Below are positions 7,478 to 34,226 of a stretch of DNA of 34,377 nucleotides, one piece after another. The stretch spans positions 1 through 34,377 of the forward strand of contig CATLTV010000037.1 in assembly GCA_950059285.1 (NCBI GenBank), given 5' to 3'. The stretch's first letter is position 1. Each line of letters starts with the position of its first letter. The notes under the pieces are model-generated. The model made no database searches, was not told the origin of the DNA, and was given only the letters and a program-made list of their open reading frames with translations. The stretch comes from an uncultured Pseudomonadota bacterium (lineage in GTDB: Bacteria > Myxococcota_A > Bradymonadia > Bradymonadales > Bradymonadaceae). The position numbers and the translations under genes are program-made.

Positions 7478-8479
7478 TCAGGTGTGGAGGAGCTGCATGA
7501 CATCCTTACGCATGGCAGCTGCATGTTGGTAGCGCTGGTTGGGATCGCTTGCAAGGGACTTTGTGATGATGTGTGTAAGAGCTTGAGATATATTGTGTTT
7601 TTGTAGAAGTGTAGGGTCAAGTCGTGGGAAGTCCTGCCCCAGGTTGCGAGGGTCCTGACCTGTGATGACGTGCCATGCGGTTGCGCCAAGAGTGTAGAGG
7701 TCAAAGCGATGATCGATGTGGGCCTCGTGTCCGTTTTGCGCTTCAGGGGCGGCGTAACCAGTGGTGATGCAACCTGCGGTGGGTTCGGTGGTTTTTGAGC
7801 CAAGTTTGAGCGTGGTTGCGCCAAAGTCAATCAGTGTAAAGAAGTCGTTGTGGCTGACCAGAATGTTGGCTGGTTTGAGGTCCTGATAGATGAAGTAGGC
7901 ATCCTGTCCATTGAGATCGAACTTGCGATGCATCTTGATCCAGATGGTGAGTATCTCGCGCATCATCTTGAGGAGGTAAAGCTCAAGATGTTGTCGCCAC
8001 GAGCGATCACGCATGACCTCTTCAAGGGGTTTTCCCTGGATGCGTTCCATGACGAGGAAGGGTTCGCTCTGGAGGATATCTTGCGGCAGTGAGAACTCAC
8101 CTTGAATTCCTGTATGCTGAGCTTTCAGGGTGATGCTCTGGTCATAAAAGAAGTTATTTGGATTGGGGATATTATTGAGTCCATCGTCGCGAAACCTGAC
8201 GAGGATTTTCTTTTCCCACTCAAGGATCTTGCGTGCGTTGATGACATGCGAGAGCGCTTCATCCTGGGTGTAGCGAAAGTGTTTGGCGTCCTTGCCGCTG
8301 TCGTAGCGGGTGGTTTTGATGAGGACGCGATTATTGGCGCATCGAAGATCTGCGGCTTCATAGATGACGCCCATACCACCGCTATCAGCGAAGAGTTTTT
8401 CGACGCGGTAGCGCTGGTTCAGGGTAAATGGAAAGGAGGGGGTAGCCCCCTCCTTGTGTGTGTGGTTTGACGTGTGCAT
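7478..8479 (-). CDS. Soluble eukaryotic-like Ser/Thr protein kinase
   Basis: A 333-residue protein that is essentially one protein kinase domain with no membrane segment. Visible landmarks are the glycine loop GGMGVIYEA (residues 34-42), the ATP-binding lysine in VLIK (Lys55), a glutamate in the following helix (about Glu89), the catalytic loop YQDLKPANIL (Asp200, Asn205; HRD is replaced by YQD), DFG at 218-220 and an APE motif at 244-246. The catalytic Asp, Lys and Mg-binding residues are kept, so activity is likely, although loss of the HRD arginine argues against classic activation-loop control. An insert at about 60-130 between the lysine and the hinge is longer than usual. It is the last gene of the island, only 8 bp after the FHA gene, which suggests the FHA protein is its partner or substrate. 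Confidence 0.85.
   Translation of the reverse strand: MHTSNHTHKEGATPSFPFTLNQRYRVEKLFADSGGMGVIYEAADLRCANNRVLIKTTRYDSGKDAKHFRYTQDEALSHVINARKILEWEKKILVRFRDDGLNNIPNPNNFFYDQSITLKAQHTGIQGEFSLPQDILQSEPFLVMERIQGKPLEEVMRDRSWRQHLELYLLKMMREILTIWIKMHRKFDLNGQDAYFIYQDLKPANILVSHNDFFTLIDFGATTLKLGSKTTEPTAGCITTGYAAPEAQNGHEAHIDHRFDLYTLGATAWHVITGQDPRNLGQDFPRLDPTLLQKHNISQALTHIITKSLASDPNQRYQHAAAMRKDVMQLLHT
8433..8455. repeat. GC-rich hairpin inside kinase 5' coding region
   Basis: Ten-base arms AAGGAGGGGG and CCCCCTCCTT are separated by a 3-nt loop. On the kinase mRNA the hairpin lies about 24-46 nt after the start codon, where it could slow ribosomes or act as an attenuator between the FHA and kinase genes. Confidence 0.5.
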
Positions 8480-8487
8480 GGATCGTA

Positions 8488-9549
8488 TTATTCGGGGAGT
8501 TCAAACTTCATGGCGAGTATACCTGCGATGACAATGATATCACCATGCTTGAGGGGTTTGCGATCGCCTAATTCGAGGAGTTCATTGTTGAGTTGAAGTC
8601 CGCTATTGGAGACAGCGTAGAGCGTATAGTTCTTATTTTGCCTGTAGATATAGGCATGTTTTCTGGACACATACGCATCGTGATCCCAGGTAGTGAGGTC
8701 GATGTCGGGGTGGATATCTGCACGAATATCCTTGCGTCCAATCAAGGTTTCATCAGTTTCGATGTGATGTTCCAGCACAGGTTGTTTTTGGAAGTACAGC
8801 GTCAACGTGGCGGGTGATTGATAGGTGCCAGGTGAGGGGAGCTGTGCGTTTGGATTTGGTCCTGATGCAGGGAATGGGTTGTAAGGTGTGGCCTCCACGG
8901 CGACGGGTTCGGAAGGCGCATCTGTGAAAGAAGGCTCTTCAAGCGTGGGGGTTTCAATGGTGTTGATGGCGGCTTGTTCGTCGTAATCAGGCGCGACGAG
9001 TTCAGGCGACTCGGGTGGTGTGTACTGTTGTTCGTCTTCAGGCGTGACAGGAGGGGTGGGGTGGAGTTGTTCACCCATGGGTCCGAAGCCTTCATTGTAT
9101 TCGGGGGTGCCTTCTGGGTAAGCCTCTCCAGTCATATGGGAGTAGAGGACGTTTGCACGAGGTTCGTCCATGGTTGCGTCATTGGCGAGCACGTCTTCAG
9201 TGTGCATGGCCGTTTCTTCTGGATCGATGGGGCTTTGTGCAGGTTCGATGTAACCTTGCTCATAGGTTTGATCCAGGGGTGGTTCCAGGGCGATGTCATC
9301 GTGTGTGTCATCCATCTCAAAGGTAGCGCCTGCGCCTCCCACAGGTGCTTCTTCCATGGGAGGAGCTTCGTTGCTTGGCGGCTGATAAACAGGAGCATCC
9401 TCGGTCTGAAGTTGAGCAGCCATATTTTGCTCGGGAGGGATCACCTCGCCTGGCTGAGGTGGGGCGAGTCGTTCGCCGCACACTTCGCACGTAATGGCGT
9501 TGGGATCATTGGCGGTTTCGCAGATAGGGCAAATTACGGGTGCTGACAT
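8488..9549 (-). CDS. Zinc-ribbon and FHA domain protein
   Basis: A 353-residue soluble protein. The N-terminus has a CPIC...CEVC zinc ribbon (Cys7, 10, 21, 24). A long acidic, Pro/Glu/Asp-rich disordered linker spans about 30-250. The C-terminal 95 residues form a forkhead-associated domain, which binds phosphothreonine peptides: the LIGR strand, the SRKH motif, the SNSG turn and the final LKHGDIIVIAG strand are all present. Such proteins relay signals from Ser/Thr kinases, and the linker has threonines that could be kinase targets. The ATG is preceded by AGAGGA at 5-nt spacing. It is flanked by the vWA gene and a kinase gene on the same strand, which makes it the natural phospho-reader of this island. 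Confidence 0.87.
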   Translation of the reverse strand: MSAPVICPICETANDPNAITCEVCGERLAPPQPGEVIPPEQNMAAQLQTEDAPVYQPPSNEAPPMEEAPVGGAGATFEMDDTHDDIALEPPLDQTYEQGYIEPAQSPIDPEETAMHTEDVLANDATMDEPRANVLYSHMTGEAYPEGTPEYNEGFGPMGEQLHPTPPVTPEDEQQYTPPESPELVAPDYDEQAAINTIETPTLEEPSFTDAPSEPVAVEATPYNPFPASGPNPNAQLPSPGTYQSPATLTLYFQKQPVLEHHIETDETLIGRKDIRADIHPDIDLTTWDHDAYVSRKHAYIYRQNKNYTLYAVSNSGLQLNNELLELGDRKPLKHGDIIVIAGILAMKFELPE

Positions 9550-9607
9550 TGAATCCTCTGTGTTTACAGGGTTTTATGTGAGTGTTTTTTTGAGGTTATT
9601 AAGATGT

Positions 9608-10918
9608 TTAGATGAGCGACGAGGCGTCCACGAGCTGGATGCTGGAGGCGCGTTTCTGAGTCGACTTGTGGCGCGTGAAGTTCATATCTTCCTGAGAGAT
9701 TTTGCCTTCAGCGGCGAACTTTTGTTTAAGTTTGATGTAGTGGTTGGCCATATCGTCGTCGCCAAGTTCGCGGTATCTTTCGGCGAGCGTGTCAAAGAAG
9801 AGGGCTGCGTCACGGCTTTCATTGCGGGCCATGGCACGGTCGAGTCCTTCGACGAGACGACCGATCTCTGCCTCATCAAAGCTGCGTTCGACGGTGCCTT
9901 TGATCTCGCGGATGAGCTGTTGGTCACTGGTGTAGTTGATGAGGACAGATTGGAGGCTGCTGCCCTGTGTGATGTTCATCGATGGGATATCGTAGAACAG
10001 CTCTGCTTTGATGACGCGTACAGTGCCCGCGTCACGTTTGGGGACGGTGAGGGTGACGATATAGGCGTATTCCTTGTCACGTTCGACGTTGCCCACGGGG
10101 ATGGAGATGGTGCGGACATCACCAGGGAGCTTCATTTTACCAAGATAGGCAATTTCAGGGCTGAAGCGGTAGCCGCGCTTGGCACGAACCTGTGGTGTGA
10201 ATGTCAGGTCAAGGCGGACGTTCTTTGCGACAGTTGTGGTGACTGCCTGTACGCGCCTGGAGAAGACCTGTTTGATGTCTTCGGGGCGCTCGATTTTTTC
10301 GGTGTAGCCGTTGGAGCCAGCCACAAGACGCTGCATAAACTTGTAGTCAAACTCCGAGCCAAAGCCCATGGCATCGATCCCAAAGCCACGAGCGCTGATT
10401 TCCTGTGCGCGTTTGAGGCACTGGTCTTCATTTCCGGTAAGTTGTCCATCAGTGAACAGGACGATACGGGGGACGAGTTTTTCTTGTGGGACCATGCTGA
10501 GCGCATGTTCCGCGCGTGTCAGGGCGTGTTCCATGTCGGTGCCACCGCCCTGGTACTGGTCGATGATGTCGATTTTTTTATTGATCGCGGCTTGTGTGGA
10601 TGAGTCGAGGATGCGTGTGGGTTCGACGATATCGTAAGCGACAGACTGGAAGGCGATGACGGTGACAAAGTCGCCTGGGCGCAGCTGTGATACGGCGGCC
10701 TTGGCGGCTTCTTTGAGCGCGTCCAGTTCGGCCGAGCGCATGGATGATGAGACATCAAGAACCATGGCGAGGTGTGTGTTGAGTGCTGTTTGAGCGCCAC
10801 CTTCACGTAGCGCGTTTGCAGCGTTGATCTTGATCAAGACCTTGAGATCGGTCTCTTCAACCTGGGTTGAAACGTTGGGACGATTGATTTCATAGTCGAG
10901 CAAGATCTCTTCAGCCAT
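9608..10918 (-). CDS. Cytosolic von Willebrand factor A domain protein
   Basis: A 436-residue protein with a vWA domain at about residues 48-225. Its metal-ion-dependent adhesion site is complete: DVSSS (Asp55, Ser57, Ser59), a GGGTDM threonine and the FTDG aspartate. A beta-rich region follows (about 230-335) and then a helical tail with an ERYRELGDDDMANHY-like segment. There is no signal peptide or transmembrane helix, unlike BatA/BatB elsewhere in this window, so it probably acts in the cytosol as a metal-dependent scaffold. AGAGGAG lies 5 nt before the ATG. Its position between two kinases and an FHA protein suggests that it assembles or is phosphorylated by them. It resembles TerY-type or YfbK-type stand-alone vWA proteins in architecture, but I cannot assign it to either. 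Confidence 0.87.
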   Translation of the reverse strand: MAEEILLDYEINRPNVSTQVEETDLKVLIKINAANALREGGAQTALNTHLAMVLDVSSSMRSAELDALKEAAKAAVSQLRPGDFVTVIAFQSVAYDIVEPTRILDSSTQAAINKKIDIIDQYQGGGTDMEHALTRAEHALSMVPQEKLVPRIVLFTDGQLTGNEDQCLKRAQEISARGFGIDAMGFGSEFDYKFMQRLVAGSNGYTEKIERPEDIKQVFSRRVQAVTTTVAKNVRLDLTFTPQVRAKRGYRFSPEIAYLGKMKLPGDVRTISIPVGNVERDKEYAYIVTLTVPKRDAGTVRVIKAELFYDIPSMNITQGSSLQSVLINYTSDQQLIREIKGTVERSFDEAEIGRLVEGLDRAMARNESRDAALFFDTLAERYRELGDDDMANHYIKLKQKFAAEGKISQEDMNFTRHKSTQKRASSIQLVDASSLI

Positions 10919-10943
10919 CGATTCTCCTCTGTGTATCGGTCTG

Positions 10944-10971
10944 CCTGACGTTGGTCCTGGTGTACGTCAGG
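10944..10971. repeat. Inverted repeat upstream of vWA gene
   Basis: Eight-base arms CCTGACGT and ACGTCAGG flank a 12-nt spacer, 26 bp upstream of the vWA start codon. The TGACGT half-sites fit a dimeric regulator or a leader hairpin. No U-run follows on the minus strand. Confidence 0.35.
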
Positions 10972-11045
10972 AGTACGTTGTTGAGTTTTGTGTCTCTTGC
11001 GCGCAGGAGTGTATCAAACACCTGAAGAAAGGGCCAGAATGAAGG

Positions 11046-12953
11046 CTATGGCTTTGTCACGCTCTGCTTCTTCTGCAAGATAATCCACAAGCCGCTCATC
11101 AAGATAAGCCCGCTCATGTTCCAGACAATCATCATTTCCCAGGCGCGCGTGGGCATCCACAGTGAGAAGATGATGCTGAGCATAAAGAAAGGTATAACAA
11201 GCAGGAGCTTACGTTCGACAAAGAGGCCAAGCATGGAGATGCAGACCGCAGCAAGCAAGCTCTCCATGACCAGTGAGATATGTTCAGGCACGCCTTGCCA
11301 CAGGCAGATACCGCGCGTGATGAGACCTGCGCTCATGACCAGTGAGAGCGTGGTAAAGAGGCGTCGATTGACCTGATTGAGTTTCATCAGGTGTGGTGCG
11401 ACGAGGCTTAATGCAATTGCAAGCAGGGTGTTGATACCTTTGAGTAAGATGAGTGATTCGGGTGTGTTTGGCAGGATGTTTTTGTACAGGAGCGTGCGTC
11501 CTACTGCGGCGACAGTGGCCCAGATGAGCGTCATGGCGAGTATGATCCAGCCGCGCGTTTTCTGGGAGATGGACACATCATTATCGCTTTGTTCAGTGCG
11601 CATGTGTTGAACCCACGCTTCCTTGTCTGCGAGCTGTGTTTCAAGCTCTTCAAGCATGGAAATACGCTGTGTGTCCTTGCCACTCCACTGGTTTGCCTGC
11701 CCGAGAAGTTCTCTGGCAGCGGCAGCGTTTTCCTTGGAGAGCTCCATATCAAACATGACACGTAGCGCAGCGCCTTGCACACCTGCTGTATTGGATACGC
11801 CAAGCTTTTTTGCGCGCTCAAGCGCGAAGTTAAGCTCACCATACTTCTGATACATATGAGAGGTTACGATCTGTGAGTGTTCTTGTGTACCGTGTGTGAT
11901 GAGGAGTTTGAGGGTGTTGCGTGCGCTTTGCAGGAGCGCGACACCTTCGCGTTGGCGTCGGAATGTGGCGATGGCCTGTCGAAATTCTTCTGCGCTTTTG
12001 TAGCGGTTGAGAGGCTCACGCGACATGGCCTTGTTGCAAATTTTGGCGAGCATGGGTGGGACATCAGGAGGGTAATCGTAGGGGGCAGATGTGTATGCCG
12101 AGTTGAGGACAAGATAGAGTGTTGCGCCCTGATGTCGTGTTTGTTTGGTGAGGATATAATGTAACAGTCCGCCAAGCAGGTAGATGTCTGTCGCGGGGCC
12201 AACCAGCTCACCCTGTGCCGCGACAATTTCAGGGGCCATGAATCCTGGTGTGCCTTTTGGGTTTTTGATGTCCGAGGTGTGAGGCAGACCAGCCGCATCG
12301 GGGTCATTCTGGTCAGGCAAGTAGAGTGCGGAGATGCCCCAGTCCACCACATAGACCTCACCAAAGCTCCCGAGCATGACGTTGTCCGTCTTCAGATCCA
12401 GATGAACAATGCCCTTGCTGTGAGCGTAGTGTACGGCACGGCAGACGTGTTCAAGAATGGCGAGGTGACCATCAAGCAGATCATCTTGCGTGTTCAGGAG
12501 CGTGGGGAGCTCTGTGTCATTTCGGATGACTTGTTTCCAGTTCACGCCTTCCACTTTTTTCATCACATAGAGTGGTGCGTGAGGGTGTGATGGGTCCACG
12601 CCCATGGAATAGACGGGGATGATATTGGGGTGATCGAGGCGAGCGGTGATCTTTGCTTCGTGAATAAGCTTTTGAGCCTGATGTTGATCGCGTTTTTCTT
12701 CGCGCAACATTTTGACGGCCACCTCTCGCCCAAGACTGGTTTGTTTGGCCAGGTGTACAACGCCCATGCCGCCCTGTCCGAGGGGTTCAATGAGGTTGAG
12801 GTCATCAAAGTTCTGCCGCGAGTGTGGTTGTGCGGGTGTGTTGGACGCGTTCCAGTTCTTTGTCTCTGATTTGTGGTGTGCCTGTGCTGCGTAGATCTCC
12901 CAGATGGAGGTCAGTTCAGGATCGACATTGGCCTTGAGTTGAGTGTGTTTCAT
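11046..12953 (-). CDS. Membrane-anchored Ser/Thr protein kinase with C-terminal helices
   Basis: A 635-residue protein with the kinase domain at about 50-335, a helical, partly TPR-like linker at about 340-450 and a C-terminal membrane block of about six helices (468-628). Kinase landmarks: glycine loop GQGGMGVVH (59-67), Lys81 in VAVK, catalytic loop HLDLKTDNVM (184-193, Leu in place of the HRD Arg), DWG instead of DFG (204-206), and GTPGFMAPE (234-242). DWG is common in kinases of Planctomycetes and Myxococcota, so this need not mean inactivity. Both the linker and the kinase would face the cytosol. The ATG has no Shine-Dalgarno, and a TATAAC hexamer ends 8 nt upstream, so the mRNA may be leaderless. 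It lies between a TIGR04222-like membrane protein and the vWA gene. Confidence 0.88.
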   Translation of the reverse strand: MKHTQLKANVDPELTSIWEIYAAQAHHKSETKNWNASNTPAQPHSRQNFDDLNLIEPLGQGGMGVVHLAKQTSLGREVAVKMLREEKRDQHQAQKLIHEAKITARLDHPNIIPVYSMGVDPSHPHAPLYVMKKVEGVNWKQVIRNDTELPTLLNTQDDLLDGHLAILEHVCRAVHYAHSKGIVHLDLKTDNVMLGSFGEVYVVDWGISALYLPDQNDPDAAGLPHTSDIKNPKGTPGFMAPEIVAAQGELVGPATDIYLLGGLLHYILTKQTRHQGATLYLVLNSAYTSAPYDYPPDVPPMLAKICNKAMSREPLNRYKSAEEFRQAIATFRRQREGVALLQSARNTLKLLITHGTQEHSQIVTSHMYQKYGELNFALERAKKLGVSNTAGVQGAALRVMFDMELSKENAAAARELLGQANQWSGKDTQRISMLEELETQLADKEAWVQHMRTEQSDNDVSISQKTRGWIILAMTLIWATVAAVGRTLLYKNILPNTPESLILLKGINTLLAIALSLVAPHLMKLNQVNRRLFTTLSLVMSAGLITRGICLWQGVPEHISLVMESLLAAVCISMLGLFVERKLLLVIPFFMLSIIFSLWMPTRAWEMMIVWNMSGLILMSGLWIILQKKQSVTKP

Positions 12954-12961
12954 TGTGTTGT

Positions 12962-12967
12962 GTTATA
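12962..12967 (-). promoter_or_regulatory. Candidate -10 for leaderless kinase mRNA
   Basis: The minus strand reads TATAAC here, 8 nt before the kinase ATG at 12953, which places the predicted transcript start at or just before the A of the start codon. No ribosome binding site lies between. There is no good -35. Confidence 0.35.
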
Positions 12968-13048
12968 CAATTTTTGAGTGAAGTGAAGTGTAAAGAGACC
13001 AGGTGTGCGTTCATGTAAGTCGTATCGTGTGCGTGGTGGCTGTACGCG

Positions 13049-13813
13049 TCATCGTGAAGAAAAGATCGCCAATAAATAATCTTTATCCATGGGATCCATA
13101 TATTTCCATCGCCATGGGTGTTGTTTCATGGGTGTGTAGAGCTGCCTCCAGCGCATTAATTCACGGGTTCCTTGAGGAGTGAGGAGTGCCAGTGATGAGG
13201 CCCATTGCTGTAGGAAAAACGCGTGTACAATGGCTGCTGCGAGTAAGAACAGCGCGAGCGCCAGTGAGGTATTATATGTCATCAGCGCTCCTACCAACCC
13301 TGTGGCAAAGAGTAGCGATGTGGCAGCCTGGCTTGATGTATGGATACGTGTGCTGTGTTGGAGCGGTTTTAAATATCCCTGCGCAGCGAGTGTCTCATGG
13401 ATACGATCACCAAAGGGGCTGAGTGTGCCTGGGAGATCAAACTCACCGAGCAGTGCGCTCAGCGCCATGGGTGGGCGAGCGTGAAGCGCAAGCCAGATCT
13501 CTTGCTCCATACCACGTAAGAGTTGTGAGGGTGGGGCGTGAGGATTGGCGACATAGAAGGTTGTTTGACCAAGCGCCGAGTGTTCCTCATGTGTGATGAA
13601 CCATCCGCGCAAGGCAAGTTGCTCAAGTTTGAACTGTGTCAGGGAGAGCATGCCTCCCTTGAGGTACGCAACCTCTGTGGGTGTGAGGGAGCCAGTGACG
13701 TTGTTATCTTTATGGTGTGTTGCAAGAGGTTTTAGTGATTGAGCACGAATGTAGCGTGCTGCAATGAAGGTCATCAGGGGAAGTAATACGATGAAAGTCA
13801 GCGCAGTGTACAT
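13049..13813 (-). CDS. TIGR04222-like membrane protein
   Basis: A 254-residue protein with an N-terminal membrane helix (about 3-20) and two closely spaced helices at about 168-207. Between them, the segment LTPTEVAYLKGG followed by a helix and RGWF resembles the signature of the TIGR04222 family of uncharacterised bacterial membrane proteins. No catalytic motif is visible. The start codon abuts the stop codon of the upstream gene, and a perfect AGGAGG with 8-nt spacing (13822-13827) lies within that gene's last codons, so the two are translationally coupled and probably act together. The family has no established function. The assignment is by remembered motif and should be treated as probable. 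Confidence 0.72.
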   Translation of the reverse strand: MYTALTFIVLLPLMTFIAARYIRAQSLKPLATHHKDNNVTGSLTPTEVAYLKGGMLSLTQFKLEQLALRGWFITHEEHSALGQTTFYVANPHAPPSQLLRGMEQEIWLALHARPPMALSALLGEFDLPGTLSPFGDRIHETLAAQGYLKPLQHSTRIHTSSQAATSLLFATGLVGALMTYNTSLALALFLLAAAIVHAFFLQQWASSLALLTPQGTRELMRWRQLYTPMKQHPWRWKYMDPMDKDYLLAIFSSR

Positions 13814-14674
13814 TTATTCTTCCTCCTGGTTTGATGAGGATGAATCTGCGTCCAGGGTGTCTGCTATCGCCGAGAGTTCGACGAGGAGTTTGTAGAGATT
13901 ATCCGCAGTGTGCGTGAGGTGTGCTGCGCTGTGTATGGTATGTGTGCGTTGACGCATGGCGAGTAGGGTGTGGAGCAGGGTTGCGTCAATGGTTGCAAAG
14001 TAATCGGAGCATTGTGTGATGATGATCTTACGAGAGGCAATCCACCAGTCAGACTGGTGGAGGAACATGAGGGTTCCAAGGCAGGACCAGAGCGTGCTCA
14101 GGTGGAGATCGATGAATGTGTAAAGCTCTTCAGGGCGGTGATGAATGTGTGGCAGCTGTTGGCGAAGGTGGAAGAGCAGTGACCTGAGCTGTTGTTCAAG
14201 TCGAAGTCTGAGGTGGTCCCATGAAATGGACAGATTCATGAGGGCATCCTCGGGACCATGAAGCATGACATGGTGACGCTGAATATCGAGATACTTTAAA
14301 GGGAACACATCGGTGGACCGTAGTAACTCGGGCTGAGTGAGGATTTCCAGGGTCATGGGCCACGTCCTTTTGAGAGGGCGCAGGTGTTGATACAATGCAA
14401 CAATACGTTCTGGGGACGCGTCTTGAACGACAAGCATCAGGTTGAGATCGCTGCTGGTTTCGTGCCAGTTCTCGGCGTGCACGGCGCTGCCATGAAGTAT
14501 GAGCCAGTGATGCGTGCTTGTTTTCTTGGTGTCTGTGTGCTCCTTTGGCGCCAAGACATCATTCACACAAGCACGAATATTTTGGAGATGTTGTATGAGC
14601 ATGTCTGGCATGTGAGCCAGCTGTATCATAATTTCAGGAGCCAGCGTTTGAGATGAGAGCGTTGTGGATGTCAT
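13814..14674 (-). CDS. Degenerate nucleotidyltransferase-like protein
   Basis: A 286-residue soluble protein. Residues about 57-85 carry a LILHGSAVHAENW stretch followed by SSDLNLMLVV, which has the layout of the nucleotidyltransferase signature GS-x(10-13)-DxD. The second aspartate is Asn here (DLN), so the metal site may be impaired. The C-terminal half is all-helical with a WDHLRLRLEQQLRSLLFHLRQQ helix, resembling the helical domains that accompany minimal nucleotidyltransferases. The tail is Ser/Glu-rich. It is the first gene of the island and is coupled to the TIGR04222-like gene. There is no obvious Shine-Dalgarno before its ATG. Assignment rests on the fold signature only; the substrate is unknown. 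Confidence 0.65.
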   Translation of the reverse strand: MTSTTLSSQTLAPEIMIQLAHMPDMLIQHLQNIRACVNDVLAPKEHTDTKKTSTHHWLILHGSAVHAENWHETSSDLNLMLVVQDASPERIVALYQHLRPLKRTWPMTLEILTQPELLRSTDVFPLKYLDIQRHHVMLHGPEDALMNLSISWDHLRLRLEQQLRSLLFHLRQQLPHIHHRPEELYTFIDLHLSTLWSCLGTLMFLHQSDWWIASRKIIITQCSDYFATIDATLLHTLLAMRQRTHTIHSAAHLTHTADNLYKLLVELSAIADTLDADSSSSNQEEE

Positions 14675-14842: not shown

Positions 14843-17269
<2,427 letters not shown>

Positions 17270-19830: not shown

Positions 19831-20011
19831 ACAATCCTCAACTGTACTTTACGACGCCGCGTCGTGAAAAAACTGGCAATTTGAATCCATGTGATTCTCT
19901 TATGCTCTCAAGGCCAGACACTCGCCTGATAGATGCTCTCTTTGTAGCATCCTCAGGTAAGTGCATAATTCGTATACAATTCAAGGTTATAACAAGGAGT
20001 TACAGGTAGTG

Positions 20012-20995
20012 ATGGATAACGCATCTTCGCAATCTATTCATGAGGCGAGCGCGTTTGTTGAACGCGTCACAGAAGAACTTTCCAAGGCCGTGATTGGGCA
20101 GCGTTACATGGTTGAACGTCTGCTGATCGGCATGCTGACAGGCGGTCACGTCTTGCTTGAAGGCGTCCCTGGTCTTGCAAAGACTCTGACAGTCAAGTCC
20201 TTGTCGGAGTGCGTGGATCTCAACTTCGCACGTATTCAGTTTACACCAGACCTCCTCCCCGCTGACCTGATCGGTACGATGATCTTTGATCAATCATCCC
20301 GCGATTTTGTCGCGCGCAAGGGGCCAGTGTTCACCAACATCCTGCTCGCCGACGAGATTAACCGCGCTCCTGCCAAGGTTCAGTCCGCGCTTCTTGAAGC
20401 GATGCAGGAACGTCAGGTCACCATTGGTGAAACCACACACAAGCTCCCCTCTCCCTTCCTTGTGCTCGCCACACAAAACCCCATCGAGCAAGAGGGTACA
20501 TACCCACTGCCTGAAGCGCAGGTTGACCGCTTCATGCTCATGATTCGTGTGGGTTATCCAAGCCGCGCTGAAGAGCGTCAGATCATGGATCTTGTGACCG
20601 AGAGCGACCTCTCAAGCGCCATCTCCAGCGTGGCAAGCGTCGAGGATATCTTTGCGGCCCAAAAGGCAGTCAGGGAAATTCCTATTGATGACAAACTCAA
20701 GGATTACATCGTGGATATCATCTGCGCGACACGTAATCCCGCAGACTACGGACTTGGCGATCTTCAGGACTATATCGAGTTTGGTGCGTCTCCACGTGCC
20801 ACCATCTTCCTGAACCTCGCTGCGCGTGCACACGCATTTATCCGCAGAGAAGAGGCTGTCTTCCCCGAAGACATCAAGGCAATTGCAAAGGATGTATTAC
20901 GCCACAGGGTCGTGCTGACCTATGAGGCCGAGGCCGAAGAACTGACCCCCGAGATGTTGATTGATCGTCTTCTTGACACGATTGAAATTCCATAG
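20012..20995 (+). CDS. moxR: MoxR-family AAA+ ATPase
   Basis: A 327-residue cytosolic AAA+ ATPase of the MoxR family, chaperone-like ATPases that act on vWA proteins encoded nearby. Walker A is GVPGLAKT (51-58), Walker B LLADE (111-115) with the NRAPAKVQSALLEAMQE helix, sensor 1 is in ATQNPIEQEGTYPLPEAQ (153-170), and the C-terminal lid follows (RNPADYGLGDLQDYIEFGASPRA region). AAGGAG at 19994-19999 fits a start at the GTG 20009 or the ATG 20012; upstream codons to 19961 are open but lack family similarity. It normally sits directly before DUF58 and bat genes. Here an SDR gene and an opposite-strand lipase gene separate it from them by about 2.9 kb. Confidence 0.93.
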   Translation: MDNASSQSIHEASAFVERVTEELSKAVIGQRYMVERLLIGMLTGGHVLLEGVPGLAKTLTVKSLSECVDLNFARIQFTPDLLPADLIGTMIFDQSSRDFVARKGPVFTNILLADEINRAPAKVQSALLEAMQERQVTIGETTHKLPSPFLVLATQNPIEQEGTYPLPEAQVDRFMLMIRVGYPSRAEERQIMDLVTESDLSSAISSVASVEDIFAAQKAVREIPIDDKLKDYIVDIICATRNPADYGLGDLQDYIEFGASPRATIFLNLAARAHAFIRREEAVFPEDIKAIAKDVLRHRVVLTYEAEAEELTPEMLIDRLLDTIEIP

Positions 20996-33427: not shown

Positions 33428-33489
33428 AGACAAAGAGGGCGAAGTATTGCGCAGCAAAACCCCACCCTCTCTGTCTCTACTTTGATGTC
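33415..33489. terminator. Bidirectional terminator overlapping both stop codons
   Basis: Twenty-five-base arms with a single mismatch (33433 against 33471) and a 25-nt loop span the ends of two convergent genes. The stem includes the final coding bases and stop of each gene, which is why both proteins end in TSK. U residues are few, so termination may be rho-assisted. Confidence 0.7.
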
Positions 33490-34226
33490 TGTTGATAGAG
33501 GTGTGTGATGGCCTGCGAGATGTATGTCGCAAGCTCTTCTCCATGTGTGTTGATGTTTTTTTGAAAGCGTTCATCCTGAACGTAGATCAGCGCGAGGCCC
33601 TGATGGATTTCAGGTGTGCAGGTATAGAAGTAGTTTGAAATAAGCTCCCTGTGTTGGAGCGCAAGGCGTGTTGCGCGAGGGTCATCAGGAGGCGTGTTGT
33701 TTTGTTTTAGCGTATTGAACGCGTCGTAGAGCGTGGCATGTTCCTGTTGAATCTTTTGCCAGTCCTCGGGTGTGTACTTTTGTGTGCGTCGCGAGGACTC
33801 TTTGTATGCAGAGGTGTGGCCCCAGGTGTGTTGTGTCTCTTCTTCGTGGAGTGAGGCATCAAAGCCGTTGAACATATCTTTGGACTCCATGGTAACTCCT
33901 TGTTGGTGTGCTTGAATGGTCTGGTTGAGGGTTTGCAAGATGGTGTTGATGTGTTGCTTTCTTTCAGTCAGAGCGAGGCGCAATTTGAGCAAGGCATCAA
34001 GCTTGTTGTAGTCAGGGTCATCGAGGATCGATGCGATCTCATGAAGTGAAAAGCCAAGCTCTCTGTAGAACATAACATCTTGTAAACGTTCTATATTTGG
34101 TTGCGTATAAACTCTGTAATCGTTCTCTGCGCGAGAGGGGCAAACAAGGCCAATCGCGTCATAGTGGCGTAATGTCCGTGGTGTAAGTCCCGTGAGAGTT
34201 GCGACCTCTTTTGTTGTCCATGTCAT
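33477..34226 (-). CDS. MerR-family regulator with TipAS drug-sensing domain
   Basis: A 249-residue regulator, close to the 250 or so of TipAL and Mta. The winged-helix MerR domain occupies residues 1-70 (TTKEVATLTGLTPRTLRHYDAIGL, with YRVYTQPNIERLQ), a coiled-coil dimer helix about 75-110 and the TipAS effector domain about 115-245 (MFNGFD, HTWGHTSAYKESSRRTQKYTPEDW, then HRELISNYFYTCTPEIHQGLALIYVQDERF). TipAS domains bind bulky antibiotics such as thiopeptides, and the protein then activates promoters with overlong spacers, usually its own and an efflux pump's. AAGGAG lies 4 nt before the ATG. The upstream control region is at the right edge of the window; no target gene is visible. Confidence 0.93.
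   Translation of the reverse strand: MTWTTKEVATLTGLTPRTLRHYDAIGLVCPSRAENDYRVYTQPNIERLQDVMFYRELGFSLHEIASILDDPDYNKLDALLKLRLALTERKQHINTILQTLNQTIQAHQQGVTMESKDMFNGFDASLHEEETQHTWGHTSAYKESSRRTQKYTPEDWQKIQQEHATLYDAFNTLKQNNTPPDDPRATRLALQHRELISNYFYTCTPEIHQGLALIYVQDERFQKNINTHGEELATYISQAITHLYQQTSK

Follow-up and report, generated by a model that had tools for sequence, protein, structure and literature searches.

The locus

The stretch of DNA analysed here (the window; 34,377 nucleotides) is contig 37 of a 441-contig, 6.65-Mb assembly, 95% complete, from an uncultured bacterium (the focal genome, G000), and among named organisms it is closest to uncultured Myxococcota, including one Lujinxingiaceae metagenome-assembled genome (MAG). 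It carries a run of six genes that encode two Ser/Thr kinases, a zinc-ribbon protein with a forkhead-associated (FHA) domain, a von Willebrand factor A (vWA) protein, a TIGR04222-like protein and a nucleotidyltransferase (NTase)-like protein. Here, we report that the vWA, zinc-ribbon FHA and soluble kinase genes form a conserved three-gene core, and weigh the possibility that this core operates as a phosphoswitch comparable to the archaeal ArnA-ArnB-ArnC system.

Read along the coding strand, the run starts with the open reading frame (ORF) for the NTase-like protein (13814-14674; 286 aa, no Pfam match of its own), followed by those for the TIGR04222-like membrane protein (13049-13813; 254 aa, NCBIfam TIGR04222 5.4e-10) and a membrane Ser/Thr kinase (11046-12953; 635 aa, Pkinase 5.4e-35). 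The three core genes complete it: first the vWA protein (9608-10918; 436 aa, VWA_2 1.2e-16), second the zinc-ribbon FHA protein (8488-9549; 353 aa, FHA 5.1e-10, weak zinc-ribbon matches at 0.004-0.006) and third the soluble Ser/Thr kinase (7478-8479; 333 aa, Pkinase 3e-19). All six ORFs, which the first-pass annotation had placed on a single strand, are real, lie on the minus strand and have the limits it gave them, and the domains it named are correct or close to correct by Pfam and NCBIfam. From the NTase-like gene to the soluble kinase, the intergenic distances are 0, 95, 127, 58 and 8 bases, so that three junctions are tight, as had been claimed, and the other two (95 and 127) are not. Ribosome-binding-like sequences (AGGAGG, GAGGAG or GAGGA) precede the TIGR04222-like, vWA and FHA genes. 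A search for promoters says little, with 8 promoter-like sites where 6.9 would be expected, and of 16 terminator-like sites (7.9 in shuffled sequence) none lies convincingly at a coding-strand gene junction.

A conserved three-gene core in Bradymonadia

Distribution was assessed by single-protein searches of 38-39 related genomes, after which the loci were fetched and read by tblastn. Twelve genomes of the group, called Bradymonadia (Myxococcota) here after the names of the relatives, contain close vWA orthologues (E < 1e-150), 52-69% identical across all 436 residues, and the genomes with close orthologues of the soluble kinase (E < 1e-100) are precisely these 12 of the 38. A contiguous run in the order vWA, zinc-ribbon FHA, kinase, on one strand, is found in 10 of the 12 core-bearing genomes. 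In G004 and G005, a lipoprotein gene separates vWA from FHA, and the kinase gene of G007 runs off the contig end; in G001 and G012, the FHA and kinase genes are adjacent and the vWA gene is on a separate contig. Junctions within the trio are short or overlapping, with a 4-base overlap of FHA stop and kinase start at four loci (L024, L027, L043, L044). The three genes thus constitute a conserved core, and the kinase/FHA/vWA signalling unit recognized in the first-pass annotation is real, its linkage being conserved over many genomes.

The same order recurs in a diverged second set, with vWA proteins 24-28% identical by tblastn, in G022, G023, G024 and G025; G021 holds a contig-end fragment of this set with a kinase pair, and G027 and G033, from another family, have a diverged trio with very large kinases (open frames of 1469-1625 aa). 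Altogether, six diverged loci and one contig-end fragment retain the trio order. Among 379 genomes of the phylum, strict orthologues are confined to the known 12, and a scan of GTDB-220 contigs with peptide patterns recovered no further lineage at that sensitivity. No relatives of the vWA protein were found in viral contigs, and plasmids yielded nothing closer than vWA proteins of 24-27% identity, for the most part from Rhizobium and cyanobacteria.

Several variants of the arrangement deserve mention in their own right. The lipoproteins inserted in G004 and G005 (L022:7650-8987, L023:3075-4391) are 438-445 aa long and share a CGVNPDR... sequence, the G004 protein being without a Pfam match; at the same two loci, NADH-dehydrogenase-like (nuo) genes, noted by eye only, lie convergently downstream of the kinase. 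In the f2 and f6 families and the diverged copies, the kinase is followed by a second kinase-like gene (L027:13841-14995, L028:4775-5878, L029:13383-14603, L030:7062-8165, L031:13405-14571, L032:3924-4952, L033:12792-13838, L035:13055-14131, L049:1247-2242), which looks like a pseudokinase partner because its DFG motif lacks the Asp and its HRD region deviates (FRDLNPDH, FWELSPDH); in the window, the soluble kinase is not followed by a gene of this kind. The vWA-like loci of family f3 (L069, L070, L073) were considered as trio members and not counted, their arrangement being a different one. There, the gene for a zinc-ribbon protein whose middle is kinase-like and whose C-terminal part is PP2C-like (L069:6064-9263, L070:9015-12214, L073:8553-11574) has genes for a PAS histidine kinase and a response regulator upstream and the vWA gene downstream, an arrangement that may represent a fused TerY-like triad controlled by a two-component system. 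On the Gloeothece plasmid Cy782202, a cluster (L079:4884-10786) encodes vWA, FHA, PP2C, FHA-kinase and kinase proteins in a row and is a phosphatase-bearing relative of the layout; it resembles the trio in this succession of vWA, FHA and kinase genes but differs in having a PP2C and an FHA-kinase fusion, and its vWA protein is only 24.5% identical.

The core proteins

The metal ion-dependent adhesion site (MIDAS) of the vWA protein is intact, as first claimed, with D55xS57xS59, T127 and D157 invariant in the 12 orthologues. An AlphaFold (AF2) model built from the 12-sequence alignment (mean predicted local distance difference test (pLDDT) 80, predicted template modelling (TM) score 0.73) places the vWA domain (residues 47-226) as an insertion in a beta-sandwich (strand pair 6-32, and 229-330), followed by a helix bundle (341-403, at a modest pLDDT of ~71-77) and a disordered tail (414-436). 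In a Foldseek search of the PDB, the model matches best the Catenulispora acidiphila protein 4fx5 (E 5e-28) and second ArnB in the archaeal ArnAB complex (8s05; 1.1e-23, TM 0.64/0.71), with the ArnB paralogue vWA2 next (5a8j; 9.9e-20, TM 0.56/0.65) and pilus adhesins, inter-alpha-inhibitor and many Sec23/Sec24 chains below. The sequence profile reaches 4fx5 over residues 51-361 (E 4.5e-11) and ArnB (8s05_A) over residues 45-245 (E 1.1e-8). Judged from the model, the vWA protein has the ArnB/Sec23-core architecture.

The C-terminal tail of this protein (residues 414-436, codons at 9611-9679, minus strand) is the least-ordered segment of the model (pLDDT <50) and, at the same time, the most conserved of all segments, with a mean conservation of 0.84 where the full-length protein has 0.73; 10 of its 23 positions are invariant across the 12 orthologues, and only 27 of 414 windows of the same length are conserved as highly. 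Its common form is MNxxRHKSTQKR...LVDASSLI, in which RH.ST and LVDAS are invariant. The window has RHKST420QKR, with the Thr420 codon at 9659-9661, and the Thr is also aligned in the six diverged copies (STVVRGG..., GTQKKRR...). A conserved, apparently unstructured Ser-Thr tail encoded beside an FHA protein and a kinase resembles a phosphothreonine docking site, which is suggestive rather than proof, and makes this peptide a candidate ligand of the FHA domain.

The FHA protein consists of a four-cysteine ribbon (residues 5-28; 9466-9537, minus strand), recognized by weak zinc-ribbon matches and invariant cysteines, a linker of varying length and the FHA domain (residues 269-341; 8527-8745, minus strand). 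Residues C7, C10, C21 and C24 of the ribbon and G271, R272, S295, R296 and H298 of the FHA domain are invariant in 13 homologues, and the phosphothreonine-binding residues are, on this alignment, intact. Among PDB entries, ArnA (5a8i/8s05_C) is a weak match (E 0.0011), below CHK2 and others. The linker is long, acidic and TP/SP-rich. In the f1 family (window 8488-9549, L021:4970-5935), linkers share an island, VLYSPLTGxAYPxG(T/S)PE(Y/F)xEGFGPMGEEL, that carries Ser/Thr; the G007 protein has two copies of the island and no zinc ribbon, as though the second copy had taken the ribbon's place.

The soluble kinase has K55, YQD200LKPAN205 and D218FG and is predicted by these motifs to be catalytically competent; K55, D200, K202, N205 and D218 do not vary among 16 homologues.

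A putative ArnAB-type phosphoswitch

In Sulfolobus, ArnA, a zinc finger plus FHA protein, binds ArnB, which combines a vWA domain, a beta-sandwich and a helix bundle (PMC6509490, PMC7472852, PMC12852372). The features of this pair recur in the core. The reader layout and the phosphothreonine-binding residues are found in the FHA protein (the G007 member being ribbonless), the scaffold fold is recovered by AF2 and Foldseek, and the MIDAS is intact. The likeness to ArnA-ArnB-ArnC (PDB 8s05, 5a8i, 5a8j) extends from the Cys4 zinc ribbon, linker and FHA domain of the reader, through the vWA domain set in a beta-sandwich with a C-terminal helix bundle and the Hanks kinase, to a candidate Thr at the C-terminus of the scaffold. 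Unlike the Sulfolobus system, the core is bacterial, includes the kinase within the operon and has no flagellar or archaellum link that we could see; sequence identity is marginal, the Thr lies in a tail after the bundle, and one member is without the ribbon. Because no part of the archaeal circuit is missing and the operon also contains the kinase, we consider it on balance probable that the vWA, zinc-ribbon FHA and kinase operon works as a bacterial switch like ArnA-ArnB-ArnC.

Such a switch may be envisaged as follows. By analogy with the ArnAB structure (PMC12852372), the FHA protein would dock through its zinc ribbon on the vWA/beta-sandwich scaffold, forming a loose complex. The operon kinase would then phosphorylate the scaffold C-terminus, the prime candidate being the invariant Thr420 in the disordered tail, and the FHA domain would clamp the phosphorylated tail, converting the loose complex into a tight one. 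The assembled complex might capture or release a target via the intact MIDAS, changing the expression or activity of the output, and an unlinked phosphatase would reset the switch. We found no gene accompanying the core across every lineage from which the output could be read. The more specific proposal, that bacteria have an ArnAB-type switch contained in one operon of kinase, reader and Sec23/24-core scaffold, whose phospho-signal is one invariant Thr peptide at the scaffold C-terminus, is advanced tentatively, as somewhat short of an even bet.

Several observations weigh against this interpretation. The ArnB-like architecture is found widely but in most cases without phospho-regulation (PMC12852372). 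The phosphosites mapped in ArnB lie within its helix bundle, whereas the Thr conserved in the vWA protein is located beyond the bundle, in the tail. ArnB and the vWA protein are only ~16% identical over the fold alignment, Pfam reports no ArnB C-terminal family in the vWA protein at E<=1, and the fold match alone, as modelled, does not separate ArnB from 4fx5-type proteins. The latter, with the YfbK-like proteins, share the same three-domain fold and include the best structural match, yet no phospho-regulation is reported for them in the sources used. The G007 FHA protein lacks the presumed docking ribbon. The tail could be conserved for another purpose, for example as a localisation or degradation signal. 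Finally, the 12 core genomes are related to one another, several of them being fragmented MAGs, and their co-occurrence of genes therefore does not amount to 12 independent events. In the strict sense, the core is at most a putative member of an ArnAB family: fold and layout agree, and by sequence the profile match to ArnB covers only residues 45-245 of the vWA protein.

The same proteins could be wired differently. In a circuit of the kind exemplified by GarA/OdhI and by the Fha proteins of type VI secretion systems (T6SS), the kinase would phosphorylate the FHA linker, the FHA domain would bind it in cis, and the vWA protein would be a downstream effector. The composition of the linker and the Ser/Thr-bearing island conserved in f1 speak for this possibility, which we nevertheless regard as unlikely: the island is absent from the f2 and f6 FHA proteins although the trio persists there, the vWA tail is conserved in all 12 genomes, and no T6SS genes were seen among the window proteins scanned.

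If the ArnAB-like switch is real, this class of reader-scaffold switch spans archaea and bacteria. One bacterial operon holds all parts of the circuit, including the kinase, with a precise candidate phosphosite, Thr420, in a 23-residue tail, which makes the bacterial function of vWA proteins with the ArnB/Sec23 core testable with three purified proteins.

Genes outside the core

The membrane kinase had been assigned six membrane helices; membrane segments are indeed predicted, but a hydropathy scan gives five clear ones, two of them abutting, and a sixth is unproven. Relatives of its C-terminal half (18-28% identical) occur in 20 other genomes, with a second one in G000, and none lies on a contig of the core; in G007, there is no membrane kinase between the TIGR04222 and vWA genes. 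The distribution marks the membrane kinase as a local insertion, a predicted member of a scattered paralogous family of kinase-transmembrane proteins outside the conserved core.

The NTase-like protein has GSA...SDxN in place of the usual GS...DxD, with G62, S63, A64, S75, D76 and N78 invariant in five sequences. Since four relatives match NTP_transf_2 (best 1.9e-6) and its low-confidence model (pLDDT 65) resembles AadA in Foldseek (6e-5), assignment of this degenerate protein to the AadA/MNT-fold nucleotidyltransferases, close to its original description, is reasonable. The TIGR04222-like protein scores 39.3 bits against a curated cut-off of 43, which its G007 counterpart passes at 67.7. Over part of their range, TIGR04222 proteins are described as putative substrates of MNIO enzymes, many being without a cysteine or an MNIO partner (PMC12452194). 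Such a role in G000 was considered for the window protein and rejected: it has 0 Cys, and no DUF692/MNIO gene was found in this 95%-complete genome. Elsewhere, an NTase relative and a TIGR04222 gene lie directly upstream of a DUF692/MNIO gene (G032, L074:4229-7074), and an NTase relative alone occupies that position in G015 (L046:1052-3408). These loci resemble the described TIGR04222/MNIO (DUF692) clusters (PMC12452194), from which the window differs in its cysteine-free TIGR04222-like protein and in the missing DUF692 gene, and such clusters may include the NTase as a companion not yet described.

Could all six genes nonetheless be one signalling or biosynthetic operon of this lineage, with the NTase as modifier and the TIGR04222 protein as membrane substrate forming an output controlled by the core? 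The order NTase, TIGR04222, vWA, FHA, kinase is the same in G000 and G007, which represent two genera, and the NTase and TIGR04222 genes abut with 0 bases between them. However, 10 of the 12 core genomes are without a detectable TIGR04222 gene and 9 without an NTase relative, and the pair, or the NTase alone, occurs with MNIO genes away from the core. Moreover, between G000 and G007 the NTase and TIGR04222 proteins are 29% and 22-24% identical, against 69% for vWA, 61% for the kinase and 48% for FHA. We judge the single-operon explanation quite improbable. Being linked to the core only in these two genera and to MNIO genes elsewhere, the NTase-TIGR04222 pair is a second unit upstream of the core and accessory to it.

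The six genes as one conserved system, the form in which the island was first described, are accordingly not borne out by these distributions. The scattering in relatives that the first-pass annotation had singled out as telling against it is not seen for vWA, FHA and kinase, which remain linked; the membrane kinase is unlinked elsewhere, and the NTase-TIGR04222 pair is found at the core in only 2 genomes and with MNIO genes in other places.

Defence systems and the wider neighbourhood

Classification of the island as a possible defence system, resembling vWA-kinase-phosphatase (TerY-type) triads, is not supported. TerY-type triads comprise a vWA protein, a PP2C phosphatase and a zinc-ribbon kinase. 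The core shares with them adjacent vWA and kinase genes and a zinc ribbon, but the ribbon is on the FHA protein rather than the kinase, the vWA protein is predicted to have the ArnB/Sec23-core fold, and, consistent with the original statement that no phosphatase is present, none of the 18 window proteins scanned against Pfam is a PP2C. The ArnB/Sec23 architecture, which the first-pass annotation did not mention, is, on the model, the closer parallel.

PADLOC searches of the six proteins matched the two kinases to PD-T4-6 and mad6 (best 4.9e-58 for the membrane kinase, 1.2e-29 for the soluble one), 33 PADLOC kinase models matching each; the FHA, vWA, TIGR04222 and NTase proteins had no match. 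Ten neighbouring proteins gave a single 53-residue match, to the MerR-type regulator at 33477-34226, whose first 53 residues match mad1 (6e-11); because no other MADS-specific gene was seen nearby, it is probably an ordinary MerR. With only these generic kinase matches and this one short match, a defence island was rejected.

An anti-phage or conflict system, whether kinase-based abortive infection, a TerY/Ter type or a MoxR-vWA ternary type, is very improbable: the kinases do match PADLOC models, and Ter and ternary systems do contain kinase-vWA mixtures (PMC7159879), but PD-T4-6 and mad6 match Hanks kinases generally (G000 alone gives 113 first-look kinase candidates), the nearest MoxR gene (19961-20995) is on the opposite strand ~9 kb off and so not adjacent to the vWA gene, and the core, unlike conflict systems, is slow-evolving, fixed in order and without a variable effector in the 12 genomes. 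The finding thus moves away from phage defence.

The remainder of the window encodes TPR, fatty-acid-hydroxylase, RCC1/collagen-repeat, OmpA, RNase H, MoxR/DUF58/vWA and lipase-type proteins, which by their domains are housekeeping or surface genes. A gene at 14843-17269, divergent from the island, encodes a large protein that combines collagen-like repeats with six DUF7151 and seven RCC1 repeats; in G001, G004 and G012, a similar gene is found close to the vWA gene.

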